5,932 nucleotides of DNA, taken from the NCBI GenBank assembly GCA_023132075.1, contig JAGLYT010000102.1:1-5932 (forward strand), read 5' to 3'. The DNA is from JAGLHV01 sp023132075 [NCBI: bacterium]. Lineage in GTDB: Bacteria > CBDUZB01 > JAGLHV01. The notes under the pieces are model-generated. The model was not told where the DNA came from, searched no databases, and saw only the letters and a list, made by a program, of their open reading frames with translations. Each line of letters starts with the position of its first letter. Within the stretch, counting starts at the first letter, position 1. Shown in pieces: positions 1,572-5,932 of this stretch. The translations under genes were made by a program, and so were the position numbers.

Positions 1572-2675
1572 ATGATGATTGATAAACTATTAAGATGTTT
1601 CATTGTTAAAATATTAATGATTTCATTTTTATGTGCTGGTTTTTGTAACGGTATAGAAAAGAAATCATCAATTGATAAAGAAAAACTTAAAAAGCGAGTA
1701 GAATTGTTTTTAAAAAAAGACAATGTTACCCGGAGAAGGAACGTGGAAGATGTTTTTGTGTTGGCAGAAATTTATGAAAAAGAAGGAAATGATAAAGACG
1801 CTATGTTCCTTTATCAGGAAGGATTAAGGGTCAATAGTTGGCGTTTGGATTATCAACTTAAGCTGGCACAGCTTATGTATAAATATGGGGACAAAAAACA
1901 GGCGGTAGAAAAAGTAAAGATTGTATGTCAATATACAGAAGACGAAGAGCTTTTAATAAAGGCGGAAGAATTTCTTTCTAACATGGGTATTCAACCGGTT
2001 AAAAGTATAAATAAAACAAAGGGGAAATTGATTGAGAATCCGGAAATGATTATAGTTCCTATAGGGAAAGTGAATAAGCGTCTTTTATTGGAGGTAAAAG
2101 ACAAACTGCAGGAAAAAATGGGTATCAGCTATTCTATTATGGAAAAGGAGATTAACCCTGGAAAGTTTGACCGCAGTTATCTGGATAAATACACGATAGA
2201 TACAAAGAGGAAGTTGCTGGTTAGCTTTTTGAGATTAATTCCTGAACAAAACGAAAGATTTAAAGAATTAGAAAATCAAGGGCAATTTAATGCCTCACGG
2301 TTGATTTCAGAACTTAAAGAGAAATATATAATTGAGGAAGGGTCTAAACTTGAGGGTTATTTGGGAATAACCCGGGAAGATATTTTTAGTGGAAACAGTA
2401 ATTTTCTTTTCGGGTGGGCAGAGAAAAATTACGGTGTGATGTCCTATCACCGGTTTTTAGCAGAATTTAACCGGGAACCTCCTAATCGGACAAGATTGTG
2501 TAATCGTATGGTAAAACAGGGGATATCCAGTTCTTTTTTTATTCTTGGTATTCCGCGTTGTACGAATCCTACTTGTATTCGGGCTTATCCTCATAATTTG
2601 ACTGAACATGACCAAAAAAGTAATGAGTTATGTTCTTGGTGCAAAGAACAATTAAAGCTTTATACAGGTGATTAA
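1572..2675 (+). CDS. Exported TPR-like protein with inactive archaemetzincin-like domain
   Basis: The 367-residue protein starts with a hydrophobic signal segment (residues 6-27). Two TPR-like helical pairs follow (about 59-125), and then an archaemetzincin-like domain (about 145-360) beginning MIIVPIGKVNKRLLLEV. Family landmarks are clear: NFLFGWA, a VMSYHRF strand, and the cysteine pattern C330-X4-C335-X18-C354-X2-C357, close to the family's structural zinc site. The catalytic motif HEXXHXXGXXH is replaced by SSSFFILGIPR (319-329). Both metal-binding histidines, the catalytic glutamate and the third histidine are all absent, while the glycine (G326) and following cysteine stay in register. 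It should therefore fold but not cleave peptides. I chose ATG 1572 because GAGAGGGGGAAG (1551-1562) is a good ribosome site; ATG 1575 is equally possible, and TTG 1539 would bury that site. The family assignment is from remembered motifs, not a search. Confidence 0.78.
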   Translation: MMIDKLLRCFIVKILMISFLCAGFCNGIEKKSSIDKEKLKKRVELFLKKDNVTRRRNVEDVFVLAEIYEKEGNDKDAMFLYQEGLRVNSWRLDYQLKLAQLMYKYGDKKQAVEKVKIVCQYTEDEELLIKAEEFLSNMGIQPVKSINKTKGKLIENPEMIIVPIGKVNKRLLLEVKDKLQEKMGISYSIMEKEINPGKFDRSYLDKYTIDTKRKLLVSFLRLIPEQNERFKELENQGQFNASRLISELKEKYIIEEGSKLEGYLGITREDIFSGNSNFLFGWAEKNYGVMSYHRFLAEFNREPPNRTRLCNRMVKQGISSSFFILGIPRCTNPTCIRAYPHNLTEHDQKSNELCSWCKEQLKLYTGD

Positions 2676-2755: not shown

Positions 2756-3478
2756 ATGCGTCGTTTGTTTGTTTTTATGTTTTTGGTGATGATGCTCATT
2801 TCCGGGTATCTCTGGGGGGAGAAGGTTAACCCAATCCGGGATGGGGTTAAGGTTTACCAGGATAAGCCTGGAGTTAAAGGGAATAAAGTTGTCGGTACAC
2901 TTACTCCTGCGGCAGCGGTTAAATCTATTGAAAGTAAAGGCGAATGGATAAAAATTAATTTAACGGGGTGGGTTATGAAAAATCAGATGAAAAAAGATTC
3001 AAGTAAGGTTGTTTTGCCTAAAGCGGTTATTGAAACAAATCATGGGAAGATTGTTGTGGAACTTTTTATGGAGCGTGCTCCGCTAACTGTGGAAAATTTT
3101 ATAAAACTTACAGAGAAAGGATTTTATAATGGAATTATTTTTCATCGGGTTATTCCTGATTTTATGATTCAAACCGGAGACCCGACAGGAACAGGGCGGG
3201 GAGGTCCGGGATATAAGTTTGAGGATGAATTTCATCCCCAGCTTCAACATAATAAACCGGGAATGCTTTCCATGGCTAATTCCGGACCCAATACCAATGG
3301 CAGTCAATTCTTTATAACGGTTAAGCCTACTTCCTGGCTAAATAACCGTCATACAGTATTTGGGCAGGTTATAGAAGGGATGGATGTAGTAAATAAAATT
3401 GTTAATGTTCCCAGAAATAATCAGGATTGTCCTATGGAAAAGGTGTTAATGAAAAAGGTTTCGATTATAACAAAATAA
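2756..3478 (+). CDS. Exported cyclophilin-type peptidyl-prolyl isomerase with SH3-like N-terminal domain
   Basis: This enzyme catalyses cis-trans isomerisation of bonds preceding proline, helping exported proteins fold. The 240-residue product has a signal peptide (about 1-21), an SH3b-like beta domain (about 25-78, including [12 protein letters not shown] at 62-73) and a full cyclophilin domain (about 88-240). Residues matching human CypA active-site positions are all present: R131 (R55), F136 (F60), M137 (M61), Q139 (Q63), F186 (F113), W194 (W121) and H199 (H126), in [22 protein letters not shown] and [10 protein letters not shown]. Activity is expected. AAAGGAGG at 2743-2750 gives an ideal ribosome site. 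The gene follows the archaemetzincin-like gene by 80 nt with no terminator seen, so cotranscription is likely. The extra N-terminal domain is unusual and may tether the enzyme to cell wall or partner proteins (inference). Confidence 0.94.
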
Positions 3479-4029: not shown

Positions 4030-4122
4030 TTTACTCTGATAAAGGCAAACTTCGGGAAACCGAAGGGCGCAAAACTGCGGGTCCACAATTATAGTGGAAA
4101 GCTGGGTTACCAAGAGAGTGAA
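4030..4122 (+). promoter_or_regulatory. Cyclic-di-GMP-I (GEMM-I) riboswitch aptamer
   Basis: The RNA would sense cyclic di-GMP. P1 is TTTACTCT (4030-4037) with AGAGTGAA (4115-4122), 8 bp including one G-U. The conserved GGCAAAC (4044-4050) leads into a 6-bp hairpin, CTTCGG/CCGAAG (4050-4055, 4060-4065), capped by a GAAA tetraloop. Next come CGCAAAA (4068-4074), CGGG and a 5-bp hairpin TCCAC/GTGGA (4082-4086, 4094-4098), then GGGTTACC (4104-4111) closing the fold. The order matches the Vc2 aptamer: tetraloop stem, then receptor stem. The base matching G20 of Vc2 is G (4044), which favours c-di-GMP over the cyclic AMP-GMP variants. One change is visible: the usual CGCAAAGC reads CGCAAAAC, weakening the first receptor-stem pair. 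Assignment is by eye. Confidence 0.88.
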
Positions 4123-4202: not shown

Positions 4203-4631
4203 ATGAAAAAACGAACTTTTATCTTTTTTATCTTTTTTATACTTTTTATGTGGGGAGGTAATATTTATGCTTCCTCTGTTGATAGTAATTTATTTTTACC
4301 CGGAACTTCCTCGGATTTTTACTTAAGGATAAAGATGCAATTATTACCTCTTTATTTGATTTTTCCTGATTTGGATGTTCGCGATGAGGAAAACAAACCG
4401 GTAAAAGATTGTAACGATTTATTTTTAAACAGTATGAATTATTGGGATAATAGTTTGAACATTTGGGGTGTTATCAAGAAAAGAGTAAAAATAGGGGATA
4501 TAGAATTAGCCATAATAAACTTAAATAAATTAAAAATCACAAAATCATCTGATAATACAAGATACTCGGATACTGCTGTATGCTTTTTTAAAGATGGCCT
4601 TTTTTTAAAACTACAAGTTGTTCTTTGTTGA
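4203..4631 (+). CDS. Exported protein of unknown family, first gene after the riboswitch
   Basis: I do not recognise this 142-residue protein. It opens with a clear signal peptide (KKR, then a Phe/Ile-rich core, with likely cleavage after A23 in NIYASS). The mature part, about 119 residues, is mixed polar and hydrophobic with three cysteines (in KDC, AVC and the final residue). The C-terminal segment FLKLQVVL suggests a closing beta-strand. The signal peptide points to the periplasm, cell surface or medium. GGGAA (4190-4194) lies 8 nt before ATG 4203. The riboswitch terminator ends 27 nt upstream, so expression should follow c-di-GMP level. The next gene begins 86 nt downstream with no terminator between. 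A degraded copy of its 3' end exists at 5382-5458, so it belongs to a duplicated unit. Its short length and abrupt end leave open that it is itself a shortened form. Confidence 0.75.
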   Translation: MKKRTFIFFIFFILFMWGGNIYASSVDSNLFLPGTSSDFYLRIKMQLLPLYLIFPDLDVRDEENKPVKDCNDLFLNSMNYWDNSLNIWGVIKKRVKIGDIELAIINLNKLKITKSSDNTRYSDTAVCFFKDGLFLKLQVVLC

Positions 4632-5054
4632 AAACCTCTCTTTCCTCAATGAAGTATCTCTAAGTAAAATCAAATTAAAAAATTACAAAGCAAAAACAAT
4701 TTAAAGGAGAAAGAAAAATGAAAAAATCAATAATCGTCTTAATAACAATAGGACTTATACTACTAATAAGCGGGATAGTAATGGCCGCCAATACCGATAA
4801 CCATACGGTAACCATTACGGTATCTGCAGTTAACGAGTTGGCTATTACAGGGGTTGATCCTATCCTGGTCATTAGTGCCGCAACGGCTGGTAGTGGATTG
4901 ACTAATGCTACAGACAATACTTGTGCACTTGACTGGACGACCAACTCCAGTGTGAATAAAAAGGTTACCGGACAGTTAGATACTGATTATTCGGCCGGTA
5001 TTGCATTAGCCGTAAATGTTACTGTGGCCGGTGGTAATGGTGCCAGTGCTGGGC
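4555..5054 (+). repeat. Tandem duplication, first copy (extent visible in window)
   Basis: This segment recurs at 5383-5932. It covers the last 24 codons of the orphan gene, the spacer and the first 112 codons of the beta-rich gene. Landmarks shared in order are ATACAA, ATACTGCTGT, TTTCCTCAAT, CAAAG, and a gapless 337-nt coding match. The true 3' limit lies beyond the window. Confidence 0.85.
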
Positions 5055-5209
5055 AGCAAACACTTATTAGTGCCAGTGCAGTGGATCTGGTCACCGGAAT
5101 GCATAATGAATTTGTTAGTGCTAATACCCTTGGTTATACAGCATCAGCTCCCACTGCTTCTCCGGCCAGTGAGACAAAGACTGTCACTTATACAATCCTT
5201 GATCAGTAA
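4718..5209 (+). CDS. Exported beta-rich protein, copy 1 (probable surface or secreted protein)
   Basis: The 163-residue protein has a signal peptide (MKK, a long Ile/Leu core, cleavage near VMA-AN at 21-25). The mature part is rich in Thr, Val, Ala, Ser and Asn, and alternates like beta-strands: TVTITVSAVNELAITG, then DWTTNS, KKVTGQLDTDY, LAVNVTVAGG and ending TKTVTYTILD. This suggests an Ig-like or fimbrial-type sandwich of one domain, with one cysteine (C69) in the mature chain. No anchor, pilin motif or enzyme motif is seen. AAGGAG (4704-4709) gives a good ribosome site for ATG 4718. It lies 86 nt after the orphan gene and is probably transcribed with it under riboswitch control. By eye, the mature domain is richer in G+C than the orphan gene. 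A paralogue follows at 5596. Confidence 0.85.
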   Translation: MKKSIIVLITIGLILLISGIVMAANTDNHTVTITVSAVNELAITGVDPILVISAATAGSGLTNATDNTCALDWTTNSSVNKKVTGQLDTDYSAGIALAVNVTVAGGNGASAGQQTLISASAVDLVTGMHNEFVSANTLGYTASAPTASPASETKTVTYTILDQ

Positions 5210-5458: not shown

Positions 5459-5550
5459 AATTTTTTCCTCAATGCAGTGTCTTTAAAGAACATCAATGTA
5501 AAACAAATGCAAAGTAAATAAATTAAATTAAATCTTTGGAAATTAAATAT

Positions 5551-5579
5551 TTGACTAAAAAAAGAAAAAGTAATATAAT
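5551..5579 (+). promoter_or_regulatory. Near-consensus sigma70-like promoter of copy 2
   Basis: TTGACT (5551-5556), exactly 17 nt, then a perfect TATAAT (5574-5579). The start would fall near 5586, inside the G6 run, giving a leader of about 10 nt before ATG 5596. It lies in sequence absent from the first unit. Confidence 0.75.
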
Positions 5580-5595
5580 CCAGGGGGGTATGAAA

Positions 5596-5932
5596 ATGAA
5601 AAGAATAGTATTTTTTTTAATAGTAGTTGGATTTATCTGGCGAATAAGCGGGATAATAATGGCGGCTAATAATGATAACCAGCAGGTGACCATTATGGTT
5701 GTTGCAGTCAATGAATTGGCTGTTACCGGGGGTAATATTACTCTGACCATTAATACTGCGACGGCTGGTAGTGGGCTGAATAATGCTACAGACACTACCT
5801 GCGCACTTGACTGGACGACCAATTCCGGTACTAACAAAAAGGTTACCGGGCAATTAGATACTGATTATTTAGCCGGTATTTCATTAGCTGTGAATGTTAC
5901 CGTAACGGGTGGTAATGGTGCCAGTGCTGGGC
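5596..5932 (+). CDS. Exported beta-rich protein, copy 2 (3' end outside window)
   Basis: The frame is open to the window edge (112 codons). It aligns without gaps to copy 1: 81 of 112 residues are identical, and 51 of the last 58, including CALDWTTNS and KKVTGQLDTDY. Differences concentrate in the signal peptide and the first strands (for example GGNITLTINT replaces GVDPILVISA). I chose ATG 5596 over the in-frame ATG 5590 because it matches copy 1's start exactly and leaves 7 nt after the G6 run (5583-5588) as a ribosome site. The signal core contains W15-R16 where copy 1 has two leucines, a charged residue that may weaken export. It has its own promoter and sits beyond a terminator, so it is probably not under the riboswitch. 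Confidence 0.87.
   Translation, partial: MKRIVFFLIVVGFIWRISGIIMAANNDNQQVTIMVVAVNELAVTGGNITLTINTATAGSGLNNATDTTCALDWTTNSGTNKKVTGQLDTDYLAGISLAVNVTVTGGNGASAG

Follow-up and report, generated by a model that had tools for sequence, protein, structure and literature searches.

Archaemetzincins (family M54, PF07998) carry the motif HEXXHXXGXXHC, with three zinc-binding histidines and a catalytic glutamate. PMC3427221 lists a four-cysteine (Cys4) site and a Met-turn beneath the zinc among the family features, treats the third histidine as doubtful in AMZ1, and describes the biologic role of archaemetzincins as little known. Some relatives do not cut. According to PMC3427221 and PMC8156234, CarG of Myxococcus xanthus is archaemetzincin-like and proteolytically inactive, with its Cys4 site kept. 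The NCBIfam model NF033824 describes myxobacterial archaemetzincin-like proteins that are also annotated as non-proteolytic. Two comparisons lie further afield. The MEROPS M94 mini-zincins (DUF1025/Zincin_1) combine TPR repeats, in some cases with signal peptides, with a zincin (PMC3890501). However, they belong to a separate zincin family, with the motif HEXXHXXGXXD. To our knowledge, they lack a Cys4 site. The iRhom pseudoproteases offer a functional analogy only: they are inactive protease relatives that bind other proteins, but have an unrelated membrane fold.

Here we describe an archaemetzincin relative encoded in a 5,932-nucleotide stretch of bacterial DNA (contig JAGLYT010000102.1; hereafter, the window). 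It shares with the archaemetzincins AfAmzA (3zvs/4axq), MkAmzA (2x7m) and 3lmc a predicted fold (Z 19.6-22.2), the Cys4 site and the position of the HEXXH helix. It differs from them in lacking both HEXXHXXGXXH and the Met-turn methionine, and in adding an export-type start and a TPR-like extension. According to PMC8156234, CarG instead keeps its histidine ligands, binds two zinc atoms and partners with CarD at promoters. None of the histidines of the CarG HQ motif, as given there, occurs in the window protein, and CarG, at 170 residues, is too short for a TPR region. A protein of the NF033824 type (L017, 333 bits) retains the Cys4 site, but differs in its motif, HQAGHLLGLSYC, in which two histidines are kept, as is the methionine. 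The same genome (G030) also encodes a protein with a CarG-type motif, HQLGHLWELHHC (L022). This protein scores 23.2 against the NF033824 cut-off of 250, and NF033824 scores thus test for NF033824 alone. L022 adjoins a gene whose start appears to resemble CarD.

Inactive archaemetzincins are already known in CarG and NF033824, which keep their histidines wholly or mostly; in the family described here the metal site is fully exchanged. In the literature searched, which lacks most subscription papers, the titles, abstract openings and passages covered contained no account of this switched family.

The gene and its product

The whole gene occupies positions 1572 to 2675 (+), or 367 codons plus a stop, as supported by the list of open reading frames in the window, by alignment of its start with the homologue in L002, and by dN/dS. 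The ATG at 1572 (MMIDK...) is the likely start. The earliest in-frame start, a TTG at 1539 that yields a reading of 378 amino acids, is less likely, and we prefer the ATG because the L002 homologue begins at the matching position of the alignment. The L003 homologue starts with GTG, a few codons off this position. Numbered from the ATG, codon 2526-2528 encodes Ser319 and codon 2640-2642 encodes Cys357. The span of 2526 to 2642 and the cysteines C330, C335, C354 and C357 given in the initial annotation are exact in this numbering.

Residues 1-27 (1572-1652, +; approximate boundary) form a predicted export signal, which consists of a charged start and then a hydrophobic run and is present in all three species of the genus. 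Export-type N-terminal extensions also appear in all six family members outside the genus that are not truncated, and one export-type start (L068) ends with a lipobox-like LMGC. These features were read from the sequence by eye, and the window protein is probably exported.

A TPR-like helical region follows at residues 34-154 (1671-2033, +), as suggested by AlphaFold2 (AF2) helices and TPR models. The full-length AF2 prediction, made from three rows (mean pLDDT 48.8 for the whole model), places helices at residues 31-140, with pLDDT of 56-91 in this block and lower values beyond. It is poor in the M54 part, for which it was set aside. In the window protein, TPR models stay below every Pfam cut-off (TPR_14, 18.7 against 23.5; TPR_2, 18 against 27). 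Cut-offs are passed in two of nine scanned family proteins: L070, with TPR_19 at 29.1 bits against 25, and L100, with TPR_19 at 35.7 against 25 and TPR_14 at 32.2 against 23.5. No TPR model matched L081, L098 or L099 in these scans. The proposal of a signal peptide joined to TPR-like helices, made at the outset, thus holds in part for the helices, while the signal peptide depends on the reading described above.

Relationship to archaemetzincins

Residues 155-361 (2034-2654, +) are assigned to an archaemetzincin domain by Pfam, PDB sequence search, an AF2 model and VIA-align. The Pfam model Peptidase_M54 matches residues 248-373 of the 378-residue TTG reading with 35.6 bits (E 1.2e-8), above the cut-off of 24.4. 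Our own profile, built from 43 intact M54 sequences, gives 74.4 bits (E 1e-21). The NCBIfam archaemetzincin model NF033823 gives E 1e-22, with 80.9 bits, which is below its cut-off of 145. L085 has no match to the 43-sequence profile; L082 has no motif in the motif listing, which holds one row per locus, and its motif-bearing reading frame is in the seed of that profile. The best PDB sequence matches are archaemetzincins, the closest being 3lmc (E 2.6e-11), and in this alignment SSSFFILGIPRC faces HEIGHLFGLGHC without gaps. A chance alignment of the motif region was ruled out by nine homologues in identical register.

The domain alone was modelled by AF2 from 26 rows, of which 23 were viral M54 reading frames and the other three came from the family, and the viral rows bias the prediction toward the archaemetzincin fold. 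The resulting model has a pLDDT of 84.6 and a pTM of 0.80, with low values at domain residues 46-56. Superposition on 3lmc gives Z 22.2, with an rmsd of 2.4 over 172 residues (VIA-align), and Foldseek gives E 2.2e-11 for the same pair. Archaemetzincins score Z 22.2, 21.0, 20.9 and 19.6 in VIA-align, against 13.7 for the next metzincin, and among the 50 matches listed all are metzincins. The helix on which active relatives carry HEXXH is retained in the model (DSSP helix, domain residues 152-170) and corresponds to residues 306-324 (2487-2543, +). Judged by Pfam, by our profile, by PDB sequence matches and by predicted fold, the domain is a member of the archaemetzincins (M54). The initial annotation had called it archaemetzincin-like, in agreement with both the above-threshold M54 match and the fold search.

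The former active site

In the alignments, SSSFFILGIPRC (2526-2561, +) replaces HEXXHXXGXXHC. The positions of the three histidines and the catalytic glutamate are held by Ser319, Ser320, Phe323 and Arg329, with Ser319 at the first histidine and Arg329 at the third. The Met-turn is changed as well, from CxM to CxR: Arg337 (2580-2582, +) takes the place of the methionine, with arginine in all ten family members for which the motif region is sequenced and methionine in 63 of 65 active-type rows.

None of these ten members carries HEXXH, and the replacements follow a fixed pattern. In every one, the first histidine has become serine, and the third histidine and the Met-turn methionine have each become arginine. 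A glutamine lies three residues ahead of the first histidine position throughout, where 52 of the 65 active-type rows have glutamate. The other two positions vary within limits: serine, valine or threonine stands at the catalytic glutamate, and phenylalanine or leucine at the second histidine. A further family-specific element, Glu345-His346-Asp347 (EHD; 2604-2612, +), is present in 10/10 members. Here the middle residue of DTDxK has become histidine (EHDxK), a residue found at this position in none of the 65 active-type rows. Ser319, Glu345, His346 and Asp347 are invariant in all ten, as are the strand residues SYxRF; this strand may be the edge strand that holds substrate. The four cysteines Cys330, Cys335, Cys354 and Cys357 (2559-2642, +), also invariant in 10/10, are predicted to keep the structural zinc site.

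Because the three zinc histidines, the catalytic glutamate and the Met-turn methionine are all absent, we infer that the protein would bind no catalytic zinc by known means and would hydrolyze no peptide by the metzincin mechanism. From the alignment and the Met-turn description, Arg329 and Arg337 would lie at the empty zinc site. The starting proposal, that all catalytic residues were lost and the cysteine site kept, was right as to both the loss and the cysteines, but its count fell short: five residues are lost, and the change from the Met-turn methionine to Arg337 was missed. It also understated the result, since the motif is not just missing in 10/10 members, but the old site is fixed for new residues.

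The extent of this fixation was measured as mean pairwise identity over the five old-site columns (three histidines, glutamate and methionine). With each family lineage represented by a single row (six rows), identity is 0.81 at these columns versus 0.37 before the helix. The corresponding values for 65 active-type rows are 0.99 and 0.32. For a second inactive set of seven rows, described below, they are 0.31 and 0.29. The family's old site is thus fixed while that of the second inactive set drifts, and therefore the site was remodelled rather than just lost. Conservation within the family, calculated without L091, an incomplete row, is 0.50 in the TPR-like region, 0.41 in residues 151-260, 0.61 in the strand, 0.64 in the helix and motif, and 0.69 in the Cys4 region. 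Residues 261-361 are therefore more conserved (0.61-0.69) than the preceding part (0.36-0.50), and this C-terminal conservation is partly that of the Cys4 site itself.

The complete absence of the catalytic motif is also what would be expected from loss of function, that is, from a decaying gene, a mutant allele or an assembly error. However, the motif residues are identical in all three genomes of the genus (the window, L002 and L003). Among these, the codons of SSSFFILGIPRC vary solely at silent third positions, and one flanking codon changes isoleucine to valine. The dN/dS values of the gene in the three genus pairs are 0.21, 0.19 and 0.17; the adjacent cyclophilin gene has 0.21, 0.18 and 0.17, and the permease gene 0.31, 0.30 and 0.21. 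With dN/dS near 0.2 and the identical switch in other phyla, we regard decay as having practically no likelihood, and artefact or decay is ruled out by the three genomes and the dN/dS. The early statement that this is "not simple gene decay" is thereby borne out.

Distribution and descent

The gene is present in all three genomes sampled from the phylum, which belong to one genus. The L002 and L003 proteins are 83 and 81 percent identical to the window protein. The Pfam Peptidase_M54 model matched in 72 of the 386 genomes searched, and among the matches examined the switched motif was found in six genomes (G000, G001, G002, G090, G120 and G228). Weak matches below the cut-off in G092, G360 and G383 are outside this motif count. 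Searches by phylum used a family alignment (A1) and counted full-type matches, the other matches being to other M54 types. They identified members in two of 44 genomes of a second phylum (G090, G394), one of four of a third (G228) and five of 39 of a fourth (G120, G449, G450, G451, G457).

In total, the family comprises 11 genomes in four bacterial phyla, and the motif region is sequenced in ten. The G450 match ends ahead of the motif, which makes it a member outside the motif counts, and the G394 copy has lost its N-terminal side to a contig end. These ten rows represent about six lineages, because L001, L002 and L003 are close to one another, as are L081, L098 and L099. In 381 genomes, members score at least 125 bits with a ten-row profile (A5) and the next M54 protein reaches 88.5; a search of 384 genomes gave largely the same listed matches. 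Most members are themselves in this profile; the independent one is G450, with 125.2 bits over a partial stretch. The family is rare and patchy within the genomes sampled. Alignment of homologues, the check proposed at the outset, showed that members of the clade retain the Cys4 site and lack the catalytic motif (10/10). Neither an absence of M54 similarity nor close homologues with intact HEXXH (0/10) was found. In one genome (G457; L107, L108, L100), two M54 frames that retain HEXXH accompany the switched family member.

All ten family rows group in a single clade, with an SH-aLRT of 99 in a tree of 100 rows, and with a bootstrap of 100 and an SH-aLRT of 98 in a tree of 71 rows. Both trees used 140 columns, few for so many rows, with the motif and Met columns excluded. 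The loci L019, L020, L050, L075, L077, L107, L157 and L158, as well as rows with fewer than 70 filled columns, were left out of the 100-row tree, and L101 and L022 are absent from the rows displayed for it. For the 71-row tree, sequences from viruses, those on long branches and near copies were removed as well.

The second inactive or part-inactive set of bacterial M54 proteins consists of seven rows (L016, L066, L071, L072, L079, L080 and L093). The first histidine position holds arginine, glutamine or histidine in this set, and the third holds six different residues; the methionine is kept in 7/7, and cysteines 1, 3 and 4 are kept. A single clade of this set and the family is not rejected by the AU test (p 0.39); the union with L017 has p 0.065. 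We do not claim independent losses, because the test leaves a shared origin with the second set unrejected.

At least 43 IMG/VR viral contigs (L118-L160) encode archaemetzincin relatives, and the 14 viral rows in the tree all keep HEXXHXXGXXH, the methionine, and cysteines 1, 3 and 4. Phage archaemetzincins may merit separate study. L018 (G018) and L074 keep HEXXHXXGXXH and have lost the Cys4 cysteines within reach of the alignment; L018, which also matches Matrixin, is outside the family.

Flanking genes

In the window, L002 and L003, which represent the genus, the M54 gene follows genes for an ABC ATPase and an ABC permease, in that order, and is itself followed by a cyclophilin gene. The latter encodes a peptidyl-prolyl isomerase of the cyclophilin type whose start is also of the export type (2756-3478, +; Pfam Pro_isomerase, 191 bits) and lies 80 bases downstream of the M54 gene on the same strand. 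It is possibly an operon partner, seen in the genus only. A GYD protein comes next after the cyclophilin in the window and in L002, where a beta-barrel-like gene just below the Pfam cut-off lies in between; L003 ends before that point.

Elsewhere, the neighbours include RecQ and an AAA ATPase at G090, YchF at G228, and an arginase family protein and a prepilin peptidase at G449. Six of the eight scanned neighbours in other phyla match a Pfam family. The families of the genus neighbours are absent among the neighbours named in other phyla (eight scanned with Pfam, L109, L110 and L112, and the rest judged by eye). Because neighbours differ between phyla, context indicates no partner gene, and a function based on the operon was dropped. 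As to a mobile origin, the protein had no match in plasmids or phages, and A1 had none in viral contigs. Promoter-like sites are about as frequent as chance predicts (7 against an expected 7.7), and terminator-like sites somewhat exceed expectation (4 against 1.6).

Several further features were observed near these genes. In L003, a gene for a Zincin_1 mini-metallopeptidase with HEIGHYFG (1-381), cut by the contig end, precedes that of the family member by about five genes. The window contains a c-di-GMP-I-GGC riboswitch aptamer (4035-4115, +; RF03167, 62 bits against a cut-off of 59), which lies about 90 bases upstream of a gene (4203-4631) whose small product begins with an export-type sequence and has no Pfam family. 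Two tandem copies of another gene follow at 4718-5209 and 5536-5932, the second running past the window end. Their products, likewise export-type at the start, match no Pfam family above its cut-off and are 72 percent identical over 112 amino acids (DNA, 78 percent over 300 bases). Similar genes, recognized by eye, are present at L002 985-1545 and L003 1164-1655.

Possible functions

We consider it likely that the protein is a non-catalytic pseudoprotease, probably exported, that serves as a binding or scaffold protein. It would act outside the cytoplasm, where the TPR-like region may hold a partner protein and the old cleft, lined by Ser319, Arg329 and Arg337, could bind, but would not cleave, a ligand or partner peptide. 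A more specific version is tentative and, on balance, rather doubtful. It holds that zinc was switched for arginine, so that the Zn(His)3 site with its Met-turn became a fixed Ser/Arg/Arg anion-binding pocket. On this view, the old substrate cleft of an exported TPR protein would recognize a carboxylate, such as that of a peptide C-terminus, or some other acidic ligand, and the proteins would make up a binding family present in four bacterial phyla.

The domain could instead be a structural remnant, a stable platform on which all binding falls to the TPR-like region, and this is somewhat unlikely. In that case, Arg329 and Arg337 would stand in for the zinc and maintain the fold through internal salt bridges, for instance with Glu345 and Asp347. 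The predicted fold is indeed intact, and the fixed EHD puts acidic residues near the arginines in sequence. However, conservation is somewhat higher at the old active site (0.64-0.69) than in the TPR-like region (0.50), and a pure platform has no obvious need for the invariance of SYxRF in 10/10 members, although neither point is decisive. This segment conservation and the fixed old site favour, without proving, a functional cleft rather than a domain that serves only as a platform. New chemistry at the site, for example through Ser319, His346 and Glu345, would account for the invariance of these residues and Asp347 in 10/10 members. It is nonetheless improbable, in that no other enzyme family exceeds its cut-off in the window protein or its scanned relatives (the Matrixin match of L018 is that of a non-member) and the fold matches, among the 50 listed, are metzincins. 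Least probable of these readings is a regulator that binds a transcription factor, even though CarG is a documented inactive archaemetzincin that does so by binding CarD (PMC8156234, PMC3427221). CarG retains metal-binding histidines (HQx2Hx2Ex2HC) and two zinc atoms (PMC8156234). Moreover, with its export-type start the window protein should not meet RNA polymerase, and it scores 40.8 bits against the NF033824 cut-off of 250.

Conclusions

In one clade found in four bacterial phyla, the whole metal site of an archaemetzincin has been swapped for one fixed set of residues. The family offers a clean natural experiment on the purpose of the archaemetzincin fold in the absence of cleavage, with the drifting second inactive set as a built-in control.
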